From: Sinimarinibacterium arenosum
GTDB taxonomy: Bacteria; Pseudomonadota; Gammaproteobacteria; Nevskiales; Nevskiaceae
Reading direction: 5' to 3'
DNA: 64,000 bases
NCBI RefSeq assembly: GCF_005047655.1
Contig: NZ_SUKF01000003.1
Coordinates: forward strand, 248,001 to 312,000
Each line of letters starts with the position of its first letter. Positions within the stretch are counted from its first letter, which is position 1. The notes below the pieces were generated by a model that saw only the letters and a list, made by a program, of their open reading frames with translations, had not been told where the DNA came from and did not search any database. The position numbers and the translations under genes were made by a program. Below, piece by piece: positions 1,444-13,933 of the stretch.

Positions 1444-4257
<2,814 letters not shown>

Positions 4258-4316
4258 ATGGATCGCTCCAACTTCTCGCGTACCCCAATAGCGTCAAGGA
4301 CGCCGGTGAGTGCCTG

Positions 4317-4850
4317 ATGTCATTCCAGTACAAGAATGTTTATCTGCTGTGGGTCTCGGTGCTGGTCATTCTGATCGATCAGATCACCAAGCAGTTGGTG
4401 GTCAGCAATCTCGAATGGTTTGAGCGGATTCCGTTGCTGCCCAGTCTCAATCTGGTGCACATGAAGAACACCGGCGCGGCATTTTCGATGCTGTCGAATG
4501 CGCCGCCGTTGTTGTTTGTCGCATTGGGCGTCAGTGTCAGCGTGGGCATCCTGTGGTGGCTGCGACGCAATCCGCGCGGTCAGACGATTCTGGCGACGGC
4601 GCTGTCGCTCATTCTGGGTGGGGCGCTGGGAAACGTCATTGACCGCGTCACGCGGGGTCACGTGGTCGACTTTGTCGACTTCTATGTTGGCAACTGGCAT
4701 TTCGCTGCATTCAACGTGGCGGACATGGCAATCTCCTGTGGCACCGCCTTGCTGCTGCTGGATATGCTGCTCGATACGCGACGTAAGGCTTCGCTTGATG
4801 CGCGCCAGGCGAGTGCCGCGCGCAAAGCACCTGATTCGGGGAAGCCGTGA
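4317..4850 (+). CDS. lspA: Lipoprotein signal peptidase (signal peptidase II)
   Basis: This 177-residue inner-membrane aspartyl protease removes signal peptides from prolipoproteins after lipidation. Four hydrophobic segments are visible. The family motifs [16 protein letters not shown] and VVDFVDFY...[12 protein letters not shown] supply the two catalytic aspartates (in NVIDR and NVADM). It starts 59 bases after ileS and its stop overlaps the ispH start (TGATG), which suggests translational coupling. The C-terminal tail is Arg/Lys/Ala-rich and somewhat longer than in E. coli. Confidence 0.96.
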
Positions 4851-5809
4851 TGGAGATCCTGCTGGCAAATCCGCGTGGATTCTGTGCCGGCGTCGATCGC
4901 GCGATCGAGATCGTGGAGCGTGCCCTGGAAGCGCTGGGCGCGCCGATCTACGTCCGGCATGAAGTGGTGCACAACCGGTTTGTGGTTGAGAAGCTGCGCG
5001 GGCAGGGGGCTGTGTTTGTCGAGGAAGTCGACGAAGTGCCGAATGGGGCGACCTGCATATTCTCCGCCCACGGTGTTTCGCAGGCGGTGCGCGAGGCAGC
5101 GGAGCAGCGGCAACTGACGGTGTTTGACGCTACCTGTCCGCTCGTGACCAAGGTACACATCGAGGTGCAGCGGTATTCGCGCGAGGGGCGCGAAGTGGTG
5201 CTGATTGGCCATACCGGGCATCCCGAAGTCGAAGGCACGATGGGGCAGTTCTCGACCGCAAATGGTGGACAGATCTACCTGGTTGAAACTCCCGAAGACG
5301 TCGCTGCGCTGCCGATTCGCGATCCTTCACGCATGGCCTATGTGACGCAGACAACGCTGTCCATGGATGATACCGCGCGAGTGATCGACGCCTTGCGTGC
5401 GCGTTTTCCCGAGATCAGTGGTCCGCGCAAGGACGACATCTGCTACGCCACTCAGAACCGGCAGGACGCGGTGAAAGAGCTGGCGAGCCGTTGTGATCTG
5501 GTGCTGGTGGTCGGTTCGCGCAACAGTTCCAATTCGAATCGGCTGCGCGAACTCGCAATGCAGCGCGGCGTGCCGTCCTATCTGATCGATGGTGCTGACG
5601 ATATCCATCCGGAGTGGCTGCAGGGCAAGCACGCAATCGGCGTGACGGCCGGCGCGTCGGCACCTGAGGTGCTGGTGCAGGGTGTGATCGAACGTCTGAA
5701 AGCACTGGGCGGCACCATGGCCACCGAATTGCAGGGGCGCGAAGAGACCATCGTGTTTTCACTGCCGCCGGCTTTGCGCCGAGCGATGCGTTCCACCGAG
5801 GCCGAGTAG
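4850..5809 (+). CDS. ispH: 4-hydroxy-3-methylbut-2-enyl diphosphate reductase IspH
   Basis: The last enzyme of the MEP isoprenoid pathway, it converts HMBPP to IPP and DMAPP using an iron-sulfur cluster. The protein is 319 residues (E. coli 316). The three cluster cysteines are recognisable: Cys12 in [13 protein letters not shown], a second in [11 protein letters not shown] and a third in [11 protein letters not shown]. The HGVS and SNSNRL motifs of the family are present. The ATG at 4850 overlaps the lspA stop. The fkpB gene often found between lspA and ispH in gammaproteobacteria is absent. Confidence 0.97.
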
Positions 5810-5858
5810 CCCGTGCGCCGGCTCAGCGCAGCATGCACACAACACAAAATGGAAGTTT

Positions 5859-6830
5859 GTGAACGCTGAAGCCGACATTGTCATCGTGGGCGCCGGCGTC
5901 GTCGGATTGTCGATTGCGTGGTCGCTGCGAGACAGCGGCGCAAAGATTGTCGTGATCGACCGGCAGCAACCGGGGCAGGGCGCGTCGTGGGCCGGCGGCG
6001 GCATCTTATGGCCCCTGCCTCCTGATCATATCGATCCGGTAATTGAGCCCTTGCTCACGCGCAGTCTTTCACTGTATCCGCGGTTCTGCGCCCAAATTCA
6101 CGAACTGACCGGAATCGATCCGCAGTACTGGGCCTGCGGTGCGCGCTATGTCGCTGATGGACGAGAGCAGGCCTTTCCTCAGATCGGACAGATTCGCAAT
6201 CCCCGCCTGCTGCAATCTCTCGCTGAAGCGGTGCGTCGCAGCGGGATAGAGATCATCGCCGATGTAGAGGCGACCGGCTGGATCAGCGCTGGAGGCAGCC
6301 TGCGGGGCATCCGTACGTCGGTCGGTGACTTTGCGTGCAGGAAAGCGGTGCTTGCAGCGGGTGCATGGTCTGCGAAGCTGCTGGATCTCCCGGTTCGACC
6401 GATCAAGGGTGAGATGGTCCTGCTGCGCGCCGCTCCGGGCGAGCTGGAGGAAATCGTGATCGGGTCGGACGTCTATCTGGTTCCGCGCCGCGACGGACTG
6501 GTCCTGGTGGGCAGCACGCTGGAGGACGTCGGATTCGATACAACGCCGACTGAGCACAATCGTGACTGGCTACTGGGGCGGGCGCGACAACTGCACGCGG
6601 GTGTCGATCGCTGGCCGATCGAACGTCATTGGGCGGGGTTGCGACCGGGCGTTGGAGAAGGCTACCCGATCATTTCGGGTGTTCCCTCGATGGCTGGGCT
6701 GTACTGTTGCACAGGGCACTATCGAATTGGTTTGACGCTGGCGCCGGCGTCCGCAGAACGGATCGCCGGCCTGATGCTGGGCACTATTCAGAGCAACCCC
6801 GCCGGGCCATTTGAATATCGGCCGCGATGA
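5859..6830 (+). CDS. thiO: FAD-dependent glycine/D-amino-acid oxidase, ThiO-like
   Basis: The 323-residue protein has an N-terminal dinucleotide-binding fold (IVGAGVVGLSIAWSLRDSG), a DAO-family middle region (ASWAGGGILWPL) and a C-terminal FAD contact (GLYCCTGHYRIGLTLAPASAE). These fit glycine oxidase ThiO, which supplies iminoglycine for the thiazole ring of thiamin, although other DAO-family oxidases are possible. The GTG start at 5859 is supported by GGAAG at 5851-5855, though the spacing is short. No other thiamin gene is nearby. A DAO-family gene also sits beside the minor-pilin cluster in Pseudomonas, so the link is positional. It converges with pilE 17 bases downstream. Confidence 0.8.
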   Translation: MNAEADIVIVGAGVVGLSIAWSLRDSGAKIVVIDRQQPGQGASWAGGGILWPLPPDHIDPVIEPLLTRSLSLYPRFCAQIHELTGIDPQYWACGARYVADGREQAFPQIGQIRNPRLLQSLAEAVRRSGIEIIADVEATGWISAGGSLRGIRTSVGDFACRKAVLAAGAWSAKLLDLPVRPIKGEMVLLRAAPGELEEIVIGSDVYLVPRRDGLVLVGSTLEDVGFDTTPTEHNRDWLLGRARQLHAGVDRWPIERHWAGLRPGVGEGYPIISGVPSMAGLYCCTGHYRIGLTLAPASAERIAGLMLGTIQSNPAGPFEYRPR

Positions 6831-6847
6831 GGTGCGGAGAACAGGCG

Positions 6848-7258
6848 CTACCAGCAATTGGCCGGTGATCGCGTTCCACTCTGATCAACCGTCAACGTTG
6901 CGCAGGACGTGCCGCTCTGGGTGTCGTTTTGCTGTCCCATGCCGGCAATGGATGCGGCTTGAACCGTAAACGTCGACGCCGTCGCAGTTGGCACCGAGAA
7001 GGTGTAGTACTTGTACACGGTCGTGGTCGATGCGGGAGCGCCCACCTGCGTCGCGTCACTGGAGTAGGTCGAATTGTTGGTTCGCCATTTTTCCTGAAGG
7101 AGCTGCATGTTCACCAACGCGGCTTGGGCATCGGCGCGACGGGTCTTGCGCATGGCGCGGTCGTAGGATGGAATCGCGATCGCAGCCAGGATGGCGACGA
7201 CTGCGGCGACGATCATGACTTCGATCAGGGTGAAGCCGGTTTGCGCTTGTCGATGCAC
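6848..7258 (-). CDS. pilE: Type IV pilus minor pilin PilE
   Basis: This is a 136-residue prepilin. The leader VHRQAQTG is followed by the mature start FTLIEVMIVAAVVAILAAIAIPSYDRAMRK, with cleavage after Gly8, Phe as first mature residue and Glu5. The remainder (RRADAQAALVNMQLLQEKWRTNNSTY and a C-terminal Cys pair) fits the PilE minor-pilin group. The GTG start at 7258 has an excellent AGGAG six bases upstream (plus-strand 7265-7269). Longer upstream starts would put 41 extra residues before the leader and cross the promoter region. It is transcribed away from fimU, instead of ending the pil operon as in Pseudomonas. Confidence 0.88.
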   Translation of the reverse strand: MHRQAQTGFTLIEVMIVAAVVAILAAIAIPSYDRAMRKTRRADAQAALVNMQLLQEKWRTNNSTYSSDATQVGAPASTTTVYKYYTFSVPTATASTFTVQAASIAGMGQQNDTQSGTSCATLTVDQSGTRSPANCW

Positions 7259-7264
7259 GGGTAA

Positions 7265-7269
7265 CTCCT
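7265..7269 (-). promoter_or_regulatory. Shine-Dalgarno site of pilE
   Basis: The minus strand reads AGGAG followed by six bases and GTG at 7258. This site decides the pilE start, because the longer open frame has no comparable signal. Confidence 0.75.
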
Positions 7270-7363
7270 GGTGGAGATGGGACTGTTGCATGATGTGAAG
7301 CAGGAAGGGGAGCTTCCATGAGTGAGTGGCGCGACGGGCGGTATGCTCAGCCAGACGGTCGGC

Positions 7364-7392
7364 TTGTATATAGGCAATCATCAGCTTATTTA
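7364..7392 (+). promoter_or_regulatory. Candidate sigma-70 promoter of the fimU-pilWXV operon
   Basis: TTGTAT (7364-7369), a 17-base spacer and TATTTA (7387-7392) lie in an AT-rich patch between the divergent pilE and fimU. The match is moderate (4 of 6 in each box at best), and no other strong promoter was seen in the 205-base gap. Divergent regulation of both transcription units from this gap is an inference. Confidence 0.3.
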
Positions 7393-7463
7393 TGTAGGAA
7401 TTTAGCCTAAGATACGGTCAGGAACTATCTTGGAGTCGTTGAGGTTCTGCCAGGAGGAGTGAA

Positions 7464-8066
7464 GTGCGCAAGGAAAGCATGCGTCGCAGAGTGAGCAAGG
7501 TCAAAGCGATCGTGCGCGGCTTCACGCTGCTTGAGCTGATGGTGACGATCACCGTGCTCGGCATTCTCGTTGCTCTGGCTGTTCCGAGCTATTCCAGCTT
7601 GATCAATCGCAACCGCGTGCGCAATGCGGCCGAGCAGATGCGCTCCGACTTCAGTCTGGCCCGCAGTGAGGCGCTGCGGCGCAGCAACAATGTCACCCTC
7701 AGCTTCACCCGCAGCGCCGACGGCGCAACGTGGTGCTACGGACTCAATACAGGCGGGAACTGCGACTGCACCGCGACCACGGGAGCCAACGTCTGCGCCC
7801 TCGATGTCGAAAGCGGTGTGCGCATCCGCCGGGTTGTGGACAGTGGTGCCTACCGCGGCGTTTCGATGACGAATCTGACGTACAGCGGCTGCTCCACCAG
7901 CTGCAACCTGACGCTGAATCCGGTGCGGCCGACCATGGCCGGCGGAACGGTGCAGTTCACGTCAATGGCGAATCAGGTTGTCAGGGTCGTGACGACGTCC
8001 ATGGGGCGTATCCGGCTGTGTTCCCCGTCCGGCGCTGGCCACGTGATCTACTTCGAGACCTGCTAA
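7464..8066 (+). CDS. fimU: Type IV minor pilin FimU/FimT-like (GspH family)
   Basis: The 200-residue prepilin has a basic leader ending in KAIVRG, then FTLLELMVTITVLGILVALAVPSYSSL with Glu5 present. The segment RVRNAAEQMRSDFSLARSEALRRSNNVTLS is typical of FimT/FimU/GspH proteins. The GTG start at 7464 follows an AGGAGGAG tract at 7452-7459. Several cysteines (WCYGLNTGGNCDC, then SGCSTSC and a C-terminal Cys) suggest disulfides in the globular domain. FimU helps prime pilus assembly at the tip in Pseudomonas. It heads the run fimU-pilW-pilX-pilV. Confidence 0.87.
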   Translation: MRKESMRRRVSKVKAIVRGFTLLELMVTITVLGILVALAVPSYSSLINRNRVRNAAEQMRSDFSLARSEALRRSNNVTLSFTRSADGATWCYGLNTGGNCDCTATTGANVCALDVESGVRIRRVVDSGAYRGVSMTNLTYSGCSTSCNLTLNPVRPTMAGGTVQFTSMANQVVRVVTTSMGRIRLCSPSGAGHVIYFETC

Positions 8067-8068
8067 TC

Positions 8069-8998
8069 GTGAAGACGCCATTGCGCATGCATATTCACCA
8101 AAGAGGCTTGTCCCTGGTCGAGCTGATGGTGGCTCTGGTCGCCGGGTTGCTGCTGGCGGGTGTCGGCACCAGCCTGCTGGTCAACAGCCTGTCGGCGGAC
8201 ACCACCAACATGCGTTACACGCGTCTGAATCAGGATTTGCGCAGCGTGCTCAATTCAATGACGCACGATATTGCCCGAGCTGGTCAGTGGGGACTGGCCG
8301 ATCAGGTCGTGCATCTGTCCAAGACCACCGAGCTGTCGTTCAGTGGGGATAGCGGAACGGTCACCGCAACCGGGCTCGATTCGGAAACATCAAGCACCAA
8401 GAATGCGTTTGCAGGTGCACTCGCCAACGGCTTGGTCGATCTGACCTTGTTCATGCTCCCATCCACGGGTACGCGGATCGACGGCACGATTGAGTCGGTA
8501 CCGGATGCAGACACGCTGTCCGTGACGATCAATGCGTCGCCTGCAGCGAATCCGGGACCCTTGCCTGAAACCAGGATCTACGCGCAGAGCTGGACCGTCC
8601 TGAATCCGTTTGGGGTCATCTTCCCAGGCAGCGCGGACCCTGATGTCGGAAGCTGCATCATCGTGTCCTACGATCTGAATGGCGACGGTCTTTACGATGA
8701 CGATCATGAGACCTTCGGCTATCGCTACGACGCTACCGACAAGGCCATCCGGATTTCGACGGGTGAAACCAGTTGTACGTCGGGCGACTGGTACAACCTG
8801 ACCGATCCTGACTTCGTCGAGATTCCTGCCGGTGGATTTCAGGTGACGCGGATCCGGACCGCGGCCACGGCGTCCAATCAACTGGTTGGCTCAGTTGATG
8901 AATATCTGATCAGTATCAGTGGCACCTTGAAGTCCGACACGGCCGTGACCCGATCGCTGTCGGCGGCGGTCAAGGTCCGCAACAACGCATTCCACTGA
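8069..8998 (+). CDS. pilW: Type IV minor pilin PilW-like
   Basis: This protein has 309 residues from the GTG at 8069, or 303 from the ATG at 8087; neither has a clear Shine-Dalgarno site. The prepilin motif is QRG/LSLVELMVALVAGLLLAGVGTSLLV, with Glu5. The following NQDLRSVLNSMTHDIARAGQWG is characteristic of PilW, a large minor pilin (GspJ-like position) in the priming complex. It begins two bases after the fimU stop, so the genes are coupled. A Ca-binding-like DLNGDGLYDDDHE stretch lies near residue 205; a metal role is an inference. Confidence 0.85.
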   Translation: MKTPLRMHIHQRGLSLVELMVALVAGLLLAGVGTSLLVNSLSADTTNMRYTRLNQDLRSVLNSMTHDIARAGQWGLADQVVHLSKTTELSFSGDSGTVTATGLDSETSSTKNAFAGALANGLVDLTLFMLPSTGTRIDGTIESVPDADTLSVTINASPAANPGPLPETRIYAQSWTVLNPFGVIFPGSADPDVGSCIIVSYDLNGDGLYDDDHETFGYRYDATDKAIRISTGETSCTSGDWYNLTDPDFVEIPAGGFQVTRIRTAATASNQLVGSVDEYLISISGTLKSDTAVTRSLSAAVKVRNNAFH

Positions 8999-9020
8999 CT
9001 CCACCAGGGCTCCGATCGAT

Positions 9021-10433
9021 ATGAACACTATGCGCAGACATCGACGAATCGGGACACCGCAGAAGGGCGTGGTGGCCTTGGCGATTGCCCTGCTGATTGT
9101 CGTGGTCACCACCGTTGTGACCGTGGGAGTCTCGCAGATCGGCGTGGGCGAACAGAAGAACATGGCCAACGAGATGCGCAACCAGGAGGCCGCTGCTGCC
9201 GCCGACGCGGGTATCGCGCGCGGCATCATGTATCTGGCGAAGAACGCCAGTCAGATTCGTCAGAGTGCGGGCAGCGGATGGATGAATGTCGCATTAACAC
9301 GCCATTGGACCGCTTGCACCAATGGCGGTACTGCGCTGCCGTGCGGAGATGGCACCGCTAACCAATTCGATAACAACTGGACCTACTACCAGGTTGAGCC
9401 ACCGCCAATTCCTTCGCCGACCCCAAGCCCTCTGCCTGAGCGTTTGTTTTTGAATGGCGAAGATCTGAAAGATCATGTATCTGTTTGGTTCGTTGCGCGC
9501 AACGGCACGGCAGGCAGCGCGCTTCCGGGGCGGACCGTCTTCTACATCGTGGCGCAGGGTACCTCCATCGACGGCTCGGGAACGGTCCTGGCGAAACAGG
9601 CTTATTCGTTTGCGCCGTTCCTGGCGCGGACGCCGGATGCCCCCTTGATTGCTGCGGGAACGATCGCGACCACCGGTGCCCTCAATGTGGTCGCCAATCC
9701 CAATGGCGGCGGCTCAGGGGTGCCTCTGTCCAGCTGGTCGAATGGGGATACCGCTTTGGCGGGCTCCATGCAGACCTGCCAGATTGAAGAGTTTCTGAGT
9801 ACGAACACGAACTACACCTATCAGGGTGATCCGGACGGCAACACGGTCACCCTGTGTCCATCCTGTTCCTGCCCAAACAACGCATCGCTGCAGATCAGCT
9901 CGTCCGGTGTCGAGGGTATCGACATCCTGGATGTAGATGGCAATACAGGCGTAAATCCGGACAGTACCAGTTTCCCTTCCGATCTTTTCCAATACGTATT
10001 TGGAGTCGCCGAAAGCGACTATCAGAAGGTCAAGGACAAGGCCAAGCTGATCAGCAACTGCGAGACCCTTGGGCCATCTTCATCCGGGTTGTACTGGCAT
10101 CCGACCGGAACAGGCGATTGCCGGATGCCTACAGGCACTAACGTGGGCAGCGTTGCCGCGCCGGTGCTGCTGGTGGTCGAGGACACTCAGTTCCGGATGA
10201 ACAACAACGGCGCGTTCTTCGGGTTGATTTTTGCATTCTCGCGAACGGCGTCTGCAGGGGTGGCCATCAATGGTGGTCCAACCCTCTATGGGTCGCTGAT
10301 CTCGAACCAGAACATCAATCTGGGCAACGGTAACTACAACGCGCGTTACGACGCGACAGTGCTCGAGAATCTGGCCAAGAGTCTCGACAACGGTGGCATG
10401 TATGCCGTGCCCGGCAGTTGGAAGGATTACTGA
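9021..10433 (+). CDS. pilX: Long PilX-like minor pilin
   Basis: This 470-residue protein has a PilX-type N-terminus: QKG, then VVALAIALLIVVVTTVVTVGVSQIGVGEQKNMANEMRNQEAAAAADAGI. Like other PilX/GspK-type proteins it lacks Glu at position 5. It is two to three times longer than usual PilX (roughly 170-200 residues). It carries a Pro-rich linker (EPPPIPSPTPSPLP, near residue 130) and a CPSCSC motif at residues 279-284. The C-terminal third (AINGGPTLYGSLISNQNINLGNGNYN) looks beta-rich. It starts 22 bases after pilW and its stop overlaps the pilV start (TGATG). Function as a pilus-tip component is inferred from family and context. Confidence 0.78.
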   Translation: MNTMRRHRRIGTPQKGVVALAIALLIVVVTTVVTVGVSQIGVGEQKNMANEMRNQEAAAAADAGIARGIMYLAKNASQIRQSAGSGWMNVALTRHWTACTNGGTALPCGDGTANQFDNNWTYYQVEPPPIPSPTPSPLPERLFLNGEDLKDHVSVWFVARNGTAGSALPGRTVFYIVAQGTSIDGSGTVLAKQAYSFAPFLARTPDAPLIAAGTIATTGALNVVANPNGGGSGVPLSSWSNGDTALAGSMQTCQIEEFLSTNTNYTYQGDPDGNTVTLCPSCSCPNNASLQISSSGVEGIDILDVDGNTGVNPDSTSFPSDLFQYVFGVAESDYQKVKDKAKLISNCETLGPSSSGLYWHPTGTGDCRMPTGTNVGSVAAPVLLVVEDTQFRMNNNGAFFGLIFAFSRTASAGVAINGGPTLYGSLISNQNINLGNGNYNARYDATVLENLAKSLDNGGMYAVPGSWKDY

Positions 10434-13400
10434 TGACGCCCCAGCGGAGCCGTACCATGAAAGATTCAGCCCGGCGAACATTCTTCTTGCGTGCTTTCTT
10501 GCGTGGAAGTTCGGGGCAGCGCGGCGTCGGCCTGATCGATGTTCTGCTGGCCGTCGTCGTGCTGGGCCTGGGCGCGGTCGGGCTGGTCAAGTTTCAGAGT
10601 GTGGTGATGCGCGAGGGTAACTCGACCAAGGCGCGCAGCGTTGCGGTGCAGATGGCCAAGGCCAAGCTGGATGATCTGCGCAGCTACAGTCAGCTGGCCG
10701 CCGGCGCCGCCGGCGTCTTCGGGTATGACGAGCTGGGTCCCACGACGGCTGCAGTCAATGCCAACGTTGGTGGAGCAGAAAAGGCCGACGGCACGCTCGA
10801 GTTGCCGAGTGGCAGTGTGACAGTTGGCGGCGTGAACTATACACGTAGCTGGACAACCACTCGGTACTATCTGTGCCGGGACAATGAAGCGGCGAAGTCG
10901 GTCAATTGTGCATCTACGCCGTGGCCCAGCGGATTGGCGGATAAGTCGCGACCGGATTTTTACGCATTGGCCGTGACGATCGCCTGGGCCGATGTTGACG
11001 GCAGTCGCCAGGTCGTCATGAACGATACTGCGGCGGCGGATGATCCGTTTACCGGAGCTCAGGGTCTGGCCAGCGCGTCCTCGGGAACCGCACCTGTGGT
11101 GACCTATGTACCGGGGGCTGCGCCGAACGTCATCGCGATCGACGTTGGCGGGGGCCAGAAGAAGGAAACCACCAATCCGACGCCGACGCTCCGGCGCCAC
11201 GGCAACACGGTCAAGAATACCGTCGCGACCTACGAGACGATCCGCTACAACGCGACAACGGACACCATCACGCGTCAGCAGTTCGTGACGCTGAACTGCT
11301 CCTGCACACAGCTGGGAACGGGCACGGGCAAGAATCTGCTCGGCGAGCAGGTACAGAAGCACACCGGAAGGCCCTCGGATGACTTCCAGGCCTTCGAGTG
11401 CAAGATCTGCTGTCGCGATCACCACGACGACGCAACCTGCGATCCGAGCAGCGATACCGGGAAGAAGAACTGCTTTGATCCCTATCGCCCGACATCGGAC
11501 TACCTGTATGACGCGGTGACGGGCGACGTGATCGACCACAAGCACTACACCGCCAATCAGCAGCTTGCGAACAGTACGGGGGACGATTACGTCGAGTCGT
11601 GCCGACTGGTGCGAACGGATGGTTATCTGCTGGTGGCGCAGGACTGGCGCATGCTCACCATCAATGCCATTCCTTCGTCGTTCTTCGGCACCGGCGGGGT
11701 GGCGAACGCGACCAACATCACCAACTACGGCACCTACGTCAAAAACTACGTATCGGCAGTCATTTCGGGCGGGACCGTGCCGTCGACAATCTGGTCGACC
11801 AGCGAGACAGTGAATCAGGATGCTACGGATCAGCTGCTGGCTCGCGGAATCTATCTCGACTACCTGGATGATGCGACCAAGACCACCTACACGGGCCGCA
11901 TCAGTGCAAATGATGCGACGGTGTGGCAGGAGATCCCCTTCTATGAGGTCAACCTGACCAAGCTGGCGCAATGGGTGTCCGGCAACAATTCAGTGGCGAC
12001 AGTGAGCAACGACGCGCTGGTCACCGAAACGGCTGGACAGGATCTGTACAGTCGCGGCCTGGTGCTGGCCAAGGCGGCCGGAACCACGGCGGCGACAGCG
12101 CGTGCGCGCGTCAGCAACACCGGCGTCATCAACGAGTTCATCACTACCGATCCGGATGATGGTGCGATCAACAAGACGTCGTCTGTGTCGATCACTGTGC
12201 CGGGCACTTCCTATACCCTCAGTGGCAGCATCAGCGGTCTGGCTGCAGGCACGGTCGTCACCGTCACCGGAACGGGCAGTGGCGGCAGCAGCAATGTGCT
12301 GTGCTCCTATTCCAGCGGTGCGGCCACGTTCAGTTGCAGCGTGCCCAGCGGATGGTCAGGCGTCATCACCGCTTCCGCCTCGGGGTATACGTTTACTCCG
12401 GGAAGCCTGACTTTGAGCAATGTCACGGCGAACAGCAGTTCGCTCAGTCTGGTGGCTGCCGCCGTCGTCAGCGTGAACTATACGATCAGCGGAACCGTGA
12501 GCCCCATTGTTGCCGGTGTCGTGTTCACGGCAAGCGGCAGCGGTTCGAATTCCGCAGGAACGTGCACCTATACGGATGCCAGTGGTGCCTATAGCTGCAC
12601 CGTGCCGAACGGTTGGTCGGGAAGCGTCATTCCGGCATTGAGCGGCTATGCATTCACGCCCGGATCCTATTCGTTCAGCAACGTCACCAGTGACCAGACC
12701 GCGAATTTTGCTGCGTCCACGACGACCAGCAGTGACTACACGATCAGCGGCACGATCGGCGCCGCACCGACGCTGTCTACGGTGACGATGTCCGCCACCG
12801 GGTCGTCCACAGGAGCCTGTACTTACGATGCGGCAACAGGTGCCTACAGCTGTATCGTTCCCAGCGGCTGGACGGGTTCGGTCACGCCGACCTCGGATCA
12901 GGGCATCATCTTCGCTCCGAGTGCCTACAACTTCACCAGTGGCGTCAGTGGCAACATTCCCAGTCAGAATTTTTCGACGTCGTACACGATGTATGGCCTG
13001 ATCAGCCAGAGCAGCGGAGTGCCGATTTCCGGGATCTCCATCACTGCCGGGGGTTCCGGCGGGAGTGCGAACGGAACCTGCGCCTATGACGGCTCGACCG
13101 GTTACTACAGCTGCGTGGTTGACGGGCTCTGGTACGGTTCAATCGTCCCAAGCCTCTCCGGTTACACGTTCTCGCCGTCGACCCGGTCTTACGCCAACGT
13201 GACCAGCACGTTCCCGTCGGAGAACTACACGGCGACGGCACAGACGTCGGCGACCTACACGATCACCGTCACCATGACCAACCTGAGCAACTCGGGAGCC
13301 AGTGGAGCGTCGGTGCAAAGCGTGAACGGACTGAGCTGCGGAAATCCGGCGACCAGTGGCAGTGGAAGCAATCGCACGGCCGTGATTGTATGCACCGTTC

Positions 13401-13543
13401 CGGCAGGCTGGAACGGGACGATTACCCCGCTGGTGCCGGTCAACGGCAATCAGACGGCAACGTTCTCGCCGGCGAGTCAGTCGTACTCGAATGTGGGCGC
13501 GAACCAGACCCGGTCGTTCAGCTGTTCTGGGAACGGATGCTGA
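10433..13543 (+). CDS. pilV: Giant PilV-like prepilin with Cys/His cluster and five C-terminal repeats
   Basis: The 1036-residue protein has a PilV-type signal: GQRG/VGLIDVLLAVVVLGLGAVGLVKFQSVVMREGNS. Ordinary PilV is about 150-200 residues. Position 1 of the mature protein is Val instead of Phe, and position 5 is Asp instead of Glu. The central part (~residues 70-590) is unfamiliar. It contains a CxC at 289-291 and the cluster C323-K-I-C-C-R-D-H-H331 with C336 and C347. Residues 594-1036 are five diverged ~82-95-residue repeats, each with a Cys pair. The ATG at 10433 has GAAGGA six bases upstream and overlaps the pilX stop. No PilY1 follows. A tip-adhesin role is an inference. Confidence 0.8.
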   Translation: MTPQRSRTMKDSARRTFFLRAFLRGSSGQRGVGLIDVLLAVVVLGLGAVGLVKFQSVVMREGNSTKARSVAVQMAKAKLDDLRSYSQLAAGAAGVFGYDELGPTTAAVNANVGGAEKADGTLELPSGSVTVGGVNYTRSWTTTRYYLCRDNEAAKSVNCASTPWPSGLADKSRPDFYALAVTIAWADVDGSRQVVMNDTAAADDPFTGAQGLASASSGTAPVVTYVPGAAPNVIAIDVGGGQKKETTNPTPTLRRHGNTVKNTVATYETIRYNATTDTITRQQFVTLNCSCTQLGTGTGKNLLGEQVQKHTGRPSDDFQAFECKICCRDHHDDATCDPSSDTGKKNCFDPYRPTSDYLYDAVTGDVIDHKHYTANQQLANSTGDDYVESCRLVRTDGYLLVAQDWRMLTINAIPSSFFGTGGVANATNITNYGTYVKNYVSAVISGGTVPSTIWSTSETVNQDATDQLLARGIYLDYLDDATKTTYTGRISANDATVWQEIPFYEVNLTKLAQWVSGNNSVATVSNDALVTETAGQDLYSRGLVLAKAAGTTAATARARVSNTGVINEFITTDPDDGAINKTSSVSITVPGTSYTLSGSISGLAAGTVVTVTGTGSGGSSNVLCSYSSGAATFSCSVPSGWSGVITASASGYTFTPGSLTLSNVTANSSSLSLVAAAVVSVNYTISGTVSPIVAGVVFTASGSGSNSAGTCTYTDASGAYSCTVPNGWSGSVIPALSGYAFTPGSYSFSNVTSDQTANFAASTTTSSDYTISGTIGAAPTLSTVTMSATGSSTGACTYDAATGAYSCIVPSGWTGSVTPTSDQGIIFAPSAYNFTSGVSGNIPSQNFSTSYTMYGLISQSSGVPISGISITAGGSGGSANGTCAYDGSTGYYSCVVDGLWYGSIVPSLSGYTFSPSTRSYANVTSTFPSENYTATAQTSATYTITVTMTNLSNSGASGASVQSVNGLSCGNPATSGSGSNRTAVIVCTVPAGWNGTITPLVPVNGNQTATFSPASQSYSNVGANQTRSFSCSGNGC
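12212..13543 (+). repeat. Five tandem protein-level repeats in PilV
   Basis: Units begin at 12212, 12479, 12737, 12983 and 13256 and encode about 89, 86, 82, 91 and 95 residues. The consensus is YTISG-T..., then GTCTY....GAYSCTVP.GWSGS..P..SGY.F.P...S..NVTS....NF. Each unit keeps two cysteines about 10-20 residues apart. The pattern resembles carboxypeptidase-regulatory or Ig-like beta-sandwich repeats of surface proteins. At DNA level the units are diverged, so this is an old duplication and not a recent expansion. Confidence 0.85.
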
Positions 13544-13631: not shown

Positions 13632-13707
<76 letters not shown>

Positions 13708-13721
13708 ATCGCGAAGTAAAC

Positions 13722-13744
13722 AGGCCCCGTCAGGGGCCTTTTTT
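13722..13744 (+). terminator. Rho-independent terminator after tRNA-Thr
   Basis: AGGCCCC (13722-13728) pairs with GGGGCCT (13733-13739) around GTCA and is followed by a run of T to 13744. Confidence 0.88.
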
Positions 13745-13845
13745 CTGCTTGTGCGTTTATCGCTGCGTCGAGCCGGGATCGGCTTGCATGAGTGCGTGTG
13801 CGCCCCGCGATCCGGCTTGCATGCAGTCAGCTATTGCGGCGGATG

Positions 13846-13933
13846 TGGCGGAGAGGGAGGGATTCGAACCCCCGGAACCTTGCGGTTCAGCGGTTTTCAA
13901 GACCGCCGCAATCGACCACTCTGCCACCTCTCC
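13846..13933 (-). tRNA. tRNA-Ser (anticodon TGA)
   Basis: The 88-base class II tRNA on the minus strand has acceptor GGAGAGG/CCTCTCC with encoded CCA and an anticodon stem GCGGT/ACCGC around loop CTTGAAA. It has the long variable arm of serine tRNAs and T loop TTCGAAT. It faces tRNA-Thr across about 140 bases and reads TCA-type codons. A TACAAT element at 13971-13966 could be its -10 box. Confidence 0.95.

Follow-up and report, generated by a model that had tools for sequence, protein, structure and literature searches.

The question raised by this 64,000-nucleotide window (the whole stretch of DNA analysed, from Sinimarinibacterium arenosum) is what a minor pilin of 1036 amino acids might do, and where in a pilus it would sit. 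Our analysis confirms that positions 10433..13543 on the plus strand hold an intact gene, composed of a prepilin leader, a PilV/GspI-type head, a 375-residue body and five diverged repeats. The gene is a single uninterrupted frame of 1036 codons that starts with ATG and overlaps the stop of pilX by one base. An earlier note on this DNA had proposed a giant PilV-type minor pilin ending in five repeat units, a proposal borne out here; the gene shares its operon with those of the three remaining tip minor pilins. The enlargement is several-fold: the protein is about seven times as long as the second PilV of the same genome (152 aa). The GC content of head, body and repeats is 0.60-0.63, near the 0.617 of the window, and GC3 is alike across the parts (0.72-0.79); first- and second-position GC differ among them with amino-acid make-up. 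The similar GC and GC3 give no sign of a recent foreign insert. Directly after the gene, genes for tRNA-Thr(CGT) and tRNA-Ser(TGA) lie on opposite strands at 13632-13933.

The predicted leader comprises residues 1-31 (10433..10525, plus strand; residues 9-31 if an inner Met is the start) and ends in Gly31, which is invariant in 12 of 12 members of the family. A class III prepilin signal is present, Gly31 being followed by VGLIDVLLAVVVLGLG, with the glycine, a hydrophobic stretch and an acidic residue at +5, and the mature N-terminus predicted after Gly31 is VGLIDVLLAVVVLGLGAVGLV. The motif is G followed by VGLID, with Asp at +5 where Glu is usual; the prepilin signal claimed for this protein is thus real, but calling it canonical was slightly too strong. 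Asp is also found at +5 in two enlarged relatives (L041 and L042) and in the short PilV-type proteins of G018 and G029, and the remaining nine large relatives have Glu. Pfam N_methyl did not match the giant pilin at E <= 1, probably because Asp replaces the usual Glu at this position. The NCBIfam PilV model TIGR02523 matched residues 29-90 (E 2e-6) at 28.3 bits, and since this lies below the cut-off of 52.2 we name the protein PilV-type and not a PilV equivalog. The heads of six relatives match the same model, one of them over the cut-off (L045, 54.9 bits) and the other five at 31-48 bits. The head (about residues 32-215, 10526..11077, plus strand), which begins V-G-L-I-D once mature, is modelled as a pilin fold with a long alpha1 helix and a four-stranded sheet, and the model structurally matches the GspI pseudopilin XcpV.

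The body that follows has two parts. The Cys/His-rich part (about residues 220-404, 11090..11644, plus strand) carries the motifs CxC, CxxCCRDHHD, HxH and ExCR, and in the 12-member alignment six Cys and four His are invariant across proteins whose identity to the window protein is otherwise 25-48%. In the window protein and the six of eleven relatives scanned, this part matched no Pfam or NCBIfam family, and a profile of the body found four weak matches among PDB sequences (best E 0.41, a CRISPR protein). The matches listed in a structure search with the whole model fell to its Big_2 part. That no family matched does not argue for a new fold. The end of the body (about residues 405-592, 11645..12208, plus strand) is modelled as a degenerate Big_2-like domain of the Ig type (the PF02368 sequence cut-off is 22.8). 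It is tempting to speculate that the Cys/His part, some 185 residues long, acts as a receptor module of a kind not yet described, metal-binding or knotted by disulfides, at the tip of a PilY1-less, DNA-uptake-type pilus, an idea to which we give a low probability. If it were true, capture by the pilus would be linked to metal sensing, or to gripping that depends on metal, in several orders of Gammaproteobacteria. The invariant Cys and His residues offer targets for point mutations.

The repeats fill the C-terminal part of the protein, all on the plus strand: R1 (residues 593-681, 12209..12475), R2 (682-767, 12476..12733), R3 (768-850, 12734..12982), R4 (851-940, 12983..13252) and R5 (941-1036, 13253..13540), the last being the most diverged. 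Their kinship is clear, as each of the ten pairs scores higher than any of 300 shuffles (z 6.0 to 20.7). A conserved Cys pair had been claimed for every repeat; it is present, spaced by exactly 11 residues, in R1-R4, but the Cys of R5 are displaced. R2 modelled alone gave a beta-sandwich of eight strands (pLDDT 92.4), a result that agrees with the predicted Ig-like or beta-sandwich units, offers no contrary fold and covers one repeat of the five. The model suggests a transthyretin/CnaB-like sandwich for this repeat; its nearest folds include domains of SdrD, UafA and SpaA among others, with middling Z scores that unrelated arrangements reach likewise. A CnaB/TTL fold typifies stalks no less than adhesive tips. 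The structure-search matches, too, show TTL/CnaB and Big_2 domains in pilus shafts and S-layers. A search of 61 genomes within the order, the window genome among them, located the repeats in the window gene and in G016, with one marginal match in G060 (E 1.8e-4, in a frame with three stops). The window and G016 copies are both fused to a prepilin head, and repeats without a prepilin signal, which would have spoken against the fusion, were absent from these 61 genomes.

Relatives of the giant gene fall into a stepwise series. A relative from another genus (L041 in G016) has the same order of head, body and repeats, with four repeats, and is 47% identical over residues 27-935. Ten further gammaproteobacterial loci (L042-L051) encode head and body in one frame of 524-805 aa. 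The shortest, in Hydrocarboniphaga sp. YM.9 (L042 in G062), has 524 aa with head and body and no tail; this genome shares its family label with the window genome, Hydrocarboniphaga belonging to the Nevskiaceae, Nevskiales. Seven loci encode 650-709 aa with tails of 87-120 residues, while L047 encodes 775 aa with a tail of 180 residues and L050 encodes 805 aa with a tail of 196. At the other end of the series, G018 and G029 have PilV-type proteins of 198 and 189 aa, head only, in operons of the same type, and G026 has a head match with an internal stop. Among the tail matches listed against the repeat profile, which do not include L047 and L050, those of L045 (11.9) and L049 (11.5) beat the best of 240 shuffled tails (6.0) in full-sequence score. 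The tail of L051 is doubtful, its full-sequence score of 8.9 lying above the shuffles and its best-domain score of 7.3 below the shuffle value of 8.7, and the tails of L046, L043, L044 and L048 were not distinct from shuffled tails in these scores. Repeat homology of the relatives' tails is therefore rejected as a general rule, with two of nine supported and a third doubtful. Because nine of the eleven relatives consist of head, body and a tail of 87-196 residues, and few of these tails are repeat-like, the body is the part that evolution keeps, and the family's conserved core does not include the five repeats.

Genomes with the body number 3 among the 85 from the order and 5 among the 369 of the class sample (the window genome counted in both). 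The body is conserved in 12 members, whose genera, Alteromonas and Lysobacter among them, are spread over Nevskiales, Alteromonadales, Thiotrichales and Lysobacterales. Other large PilV-type frames also occur. G143 has three PilV-type matches (C22, C171 and C187) in frames of 721, 724 and 792 aa, of which only C22 matched the body profile, and PilV-type heads lie in frames of 779 and 581 aa at G331:C1:520875-521174 and G300:C14:90142-90429, in genomes with no match to that profile; the latter two are possibly other modular PilV architectures. The series of head only, head and body, added short tail, and added four or five repeats is a natural test set for the function of modules at a pilus tip.

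The company that the gene keeps bears on its role. Upstream on the same strand lie genes for a FimT/PpdA-like protein (H subunit, 7464..8066; GspH over cut-off, PRK10506 at E 2.1e-17 and below cut-off), a PilW/PpdB-like protein of 303 aa (J subunit, 8087..8998; N_methyl just over cut-off, PRK10557 at E 6.6e-18 and below cut-off) and a PilX of 470 aa (K subunit, 9021..10433; PilX_N, PF14341, at 33.3 bits over 25.5), whose mature N-terminus has no Glu at +5. The window FimT scored 63.4 of 158 bits with the PpdA model, most of which is covered, and the window PilW 64.7 of 120 bits with the PpdB model, both short of the equivalog cut-offs. FimT carries GRIRLC close to its C-terminus, with 14 residues after it and GRIR at position 181 of 200. 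A PilE-like pilin gene (6848..7381, minus strand; ComP_DUS match to PF16732, E 2.1e-20, over cut-off) is divergent from these genes and is preceded by ispH and thiO, which were read by eye. The order fimT-pilW-pilX-pilV (H-J-K-I) recurs in ten of the eleven relatives; L042 shows pilW-pilX-pilV and then the contig end. The operon adjoins ispH, again recognised by eye, in L041, L043, L044, L046 and L048, and has other flanks in L045, L047 and L049-L051. Judged by gene order and model matches, the window operon is of the PilY1-less ppd/competence type and not of the PilY1 type. The neighbouring pilins have features of their own: PilX is 371-599 aa in the eleven relatives, PilX_N is the sole domain over the Pfam cut-off in the 470-aa window PilX, and the PilX of the genome's other operon, at 189 aa, is about two to three times smaller. 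In Alteromonas lipolytica (L046), whose genome has no PilY1 match, the enlarged pilV is followed at 9057-12135 by frames for a divergent FimT (GRVRIC), PilV, PilW, a PilX-like and a PilE-like protein.

The earlier comparison with the Pseudomonas FimU-PilV-PilW-PilX-PilY1 complex fits a different locus of this genome. A second minor-pilin operon, fimT-pilV(152 aa)-pilW-pilX-pilY1-pilE, lies at C18:523.8-530.1 kb (3805-10108 of locus L029, G000:C18:520000-539000). Its FimT has no PpdA match at E 0.001 and no GRxR, its PilW matches PpdB over the N-terminal part only, and its PilX, with no NCBIfam match, is named by its N-terminus. PF05567, the PilY1 domain, is absent from the giant gene and has its sole match in the genome at C18:524697-525734.

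It might be supposed that the giant PilV replaces PilY1, as a set of 16 body-bearing genomes at first suggested: PilQ is over cut-off in all 16 but PilY1 in three (the window genome, G243 and Lysobacter telluris), with G143 below cut-off. However, the set includes three Pseudidiomarina and three Methylophaga, so that its members are not independent samples, and at least two of them are incomplete MAGs (79% and 86%). In the four genomes with a PilY1 match, that match is never beside the enlarged pilV: the two are 265 kb apart in the window genome and lie on different contigs in G143 and G243, and the 15.6 kb of the L. telluris locus (L050) contain no frame of PilY1 size. In the class sample of 369 genomes, PilY1 was matched in 223 (207 over cut-off) and PilQ in 349 (306 over cut-off). 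A PilY1 match is found in 3 of 5 body-bearing genomes (one below cut-off) and in 212 of 300 strong-PilQ genomes (Fisher p 0.63), the 300 having been obtained by hand-transcribed exclusion of the weak-PilQ list, against a computed count of 306 over cut-off. Replacement of PilY1 by the giant PilV is rejected as a general rule on these figures, and the window genome itself has pilY1. A broader trend towards PilV enlargement in PilY1-less pili likewise finds no enrichment: frames of more than 400 aa with a PilV head occurred in four of the first 80 of 88 PilY1-less strong-PilQ genomes (G344, G086, G153 and, as a partial match, G286) and in at least seven of 80 selected from the 223 PilY1-match genomes (G143 three times, G331, G300, G319, G294, G252 and G229). 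The operon is PilY1-less; that its giant protein stands in for PilY1 is not supported statistically.

Taken together, these observations make it probable, in our judgement, that the giant protein is the I-type subunit, in the PilV/PpdC position, of a complete PilY1-less FimT-PilW-PilX-PilV set, enlarged into a modular pilin that presents a binding arm at the tip. Prepilin peptidase would cleave after Gly31, and the head, to judge from its fold and homology, would pack as the I subunit beside PilX in a priming complex destined for the pilus tip. Presumably too bulky for the shaft, the body and the array of repeats would project as a flexible arm of beads, a reach that we extrapolate from one modelled repeat. 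This tip placement is predicted by analogy, because bulky modules hardly fit a shaft, as has been argued for PilB/PilC and ComZ. The missing Glu5 of the window PilX is consistent with it, since the V. cholerae capping pilin is also described as lacking Glu5 (PMC12040237). Processing and packing are harder to take for granted, given Asp at +5 and the length of the leader. The arm might grip as PilY1 does in the genome's other operon, with the conserved body providing the core binding or folding function of the family and the number of repeats setting reach or avidity. The predicted ligand is most likely an extracellular surface or polymer, with DNA second.

Adhesion is one of two candidate roles, and DNA capture is the other; the operon's kinship to the ppd/competence set leads us to weight DNA capture more than the earlier note did. 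The arm could be a DNA-capture device of a competence-type set, with the giant PilV helping FimT to hold DNA at the tip for uptake, as proposed for Thermus ComZ, a minority reading that we nevertheless take seriously. The operon order equals that of E. coli ppdAB-ygdB-ppdC, of H. influenzae comNOPQ, reported with the same organisation and as required for DNA uptake (PMC12616744), and, by locus numbers, of the V. cholerae competence set VC0858-0861. The GRIRLC of the window FimT carries GRxR, reported as the DNA-binding motif of FimT in L. pneumophila (PMC8897410) and of FimT3 in Xylella (PMC9956873), and the FimT of the PilY1 operon does not. However, of the 11 loci that have an enlarged PilV and a visible FimT in the operon, 5 carry GRxR near the FimT C-terminus (the window, L041 and three Pseudidiomarina), L045 having GRTK and the other five neither. 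It is also present in the operon FimT of three head-only relatives (one with an internal stop), so that DNA uptake would need no giant PilV. ComEC is present in the window genome, but it is near-universal (10 of 14 control genomes), and although ComZ binds DNA, its DNA module has a different fold.

Other explanations fare less well. The added domains might have no ligand of their own and a purely structural role, holding the tip complex stable or gating the secretin as a spacer or cap. The shafts and S-layers in which TTL/CnaB and Big_2 domains also occur, and a tail length free to vary among relatives, would suit such a role, but Cys/His motifs invariant in 12 members at 25-48% identity go beyond a spacer's need, and we regard it as improbable. 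That the operon serves a type II secretion pseudopilus is suggested by the match of FimT to GspH, by sub-threshold GspI matches of some relatives' heads and by the likeness of the modelled head to XcpV. Yet inspection of the ORF listings by eye revealed no gsp machinery gene, gene order and models fit ppd/T4P minor pilins better, and PilQ and a pilE-like gene are present; we reject this reading as very unlikely. As for a frameshift or assembly error joining two genes, an artefact that the earlier note had itself raised, the same fusion in L041/G016, 47% identical over residues 27-935, together with the head-body frames of L042-L051, refutes it; nothing turned up in its favour, and we give it next to no credit.

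To our knowledge, how type IV pili without PilY1 grip is little understood. A built-in covalent arm at the PilV position, conserved over several orders, would bear on that question, and because one genome holds both a PilY1 set and a giant-pilin set, a division of labour between two tip types could be tested in a single strain. Three things look new: how the protein is built, its membership of a competence-type operon, and its conserved Cys/His part; among the results listed by our literature searches, in which the motif CCRDHHD was not searched by name, no title or abstract opening describes such a protein.

The protein nevertheless belongs to a known kind. Modular type IV pilins are described as widespread, with over 1,200 proteins in 264 architectures, and the giant pilin is longer than the example singled out there, an 860-residue protein with 12 repeats (Raynaud et al. 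2021, PMC8179133). A tip position has been argued for the large modular minor pilins PilB and PilC of Streptococcus sanguinis (PMC8179133, PMC9934059). These share with the giant pilin a pilin module followed by C-terminal functional modules, whereas here the pilin belongs, as I/PilV subunit, to the competence-type set of a diderm, and its added modules are a Cys/His part with no family name, a Big_2-like domain and the five repeats, in a protein of 1036 residues. ComZ of Thermus thermophilus is likewise a large minor pilin with a bulky beta module, reported to bind DNA and argued to fit the tip only (PMC6561018), but its solenoid is inserted in the pilin sheet, whereas the modules of the giant pilin follow the head and the modelled repeat is a sandwich. 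Compared with the PilY1/PilC tip adhesins, the giant gene has no PilY1 domain match, and the genome's pilY1 is in a separate operon. The closest parallels to the operon are the four-gene minor-pilin sets of V. cholerae (VC0858-0861) and H. influenzae (comNOPQ), in the same H-J-K-I order. In V. cholerae, FimT, PilW, PilX and PilV are given as VC0858, 0859, 0860 and 0861, FimT has the motif G-[R/K]-X-[R/K], and the modelled order of the minor pilins is PilX, PilV, PilW, FimT (PMC12040237). The ppdA-ppdB-ygdB-ppdC genes of E. coli K-12 have the H-J-K-I order as well, with no pilY1 beside either operon, but PpdC has 107 aa where the window protein has 1036, and the window PilX is also large.
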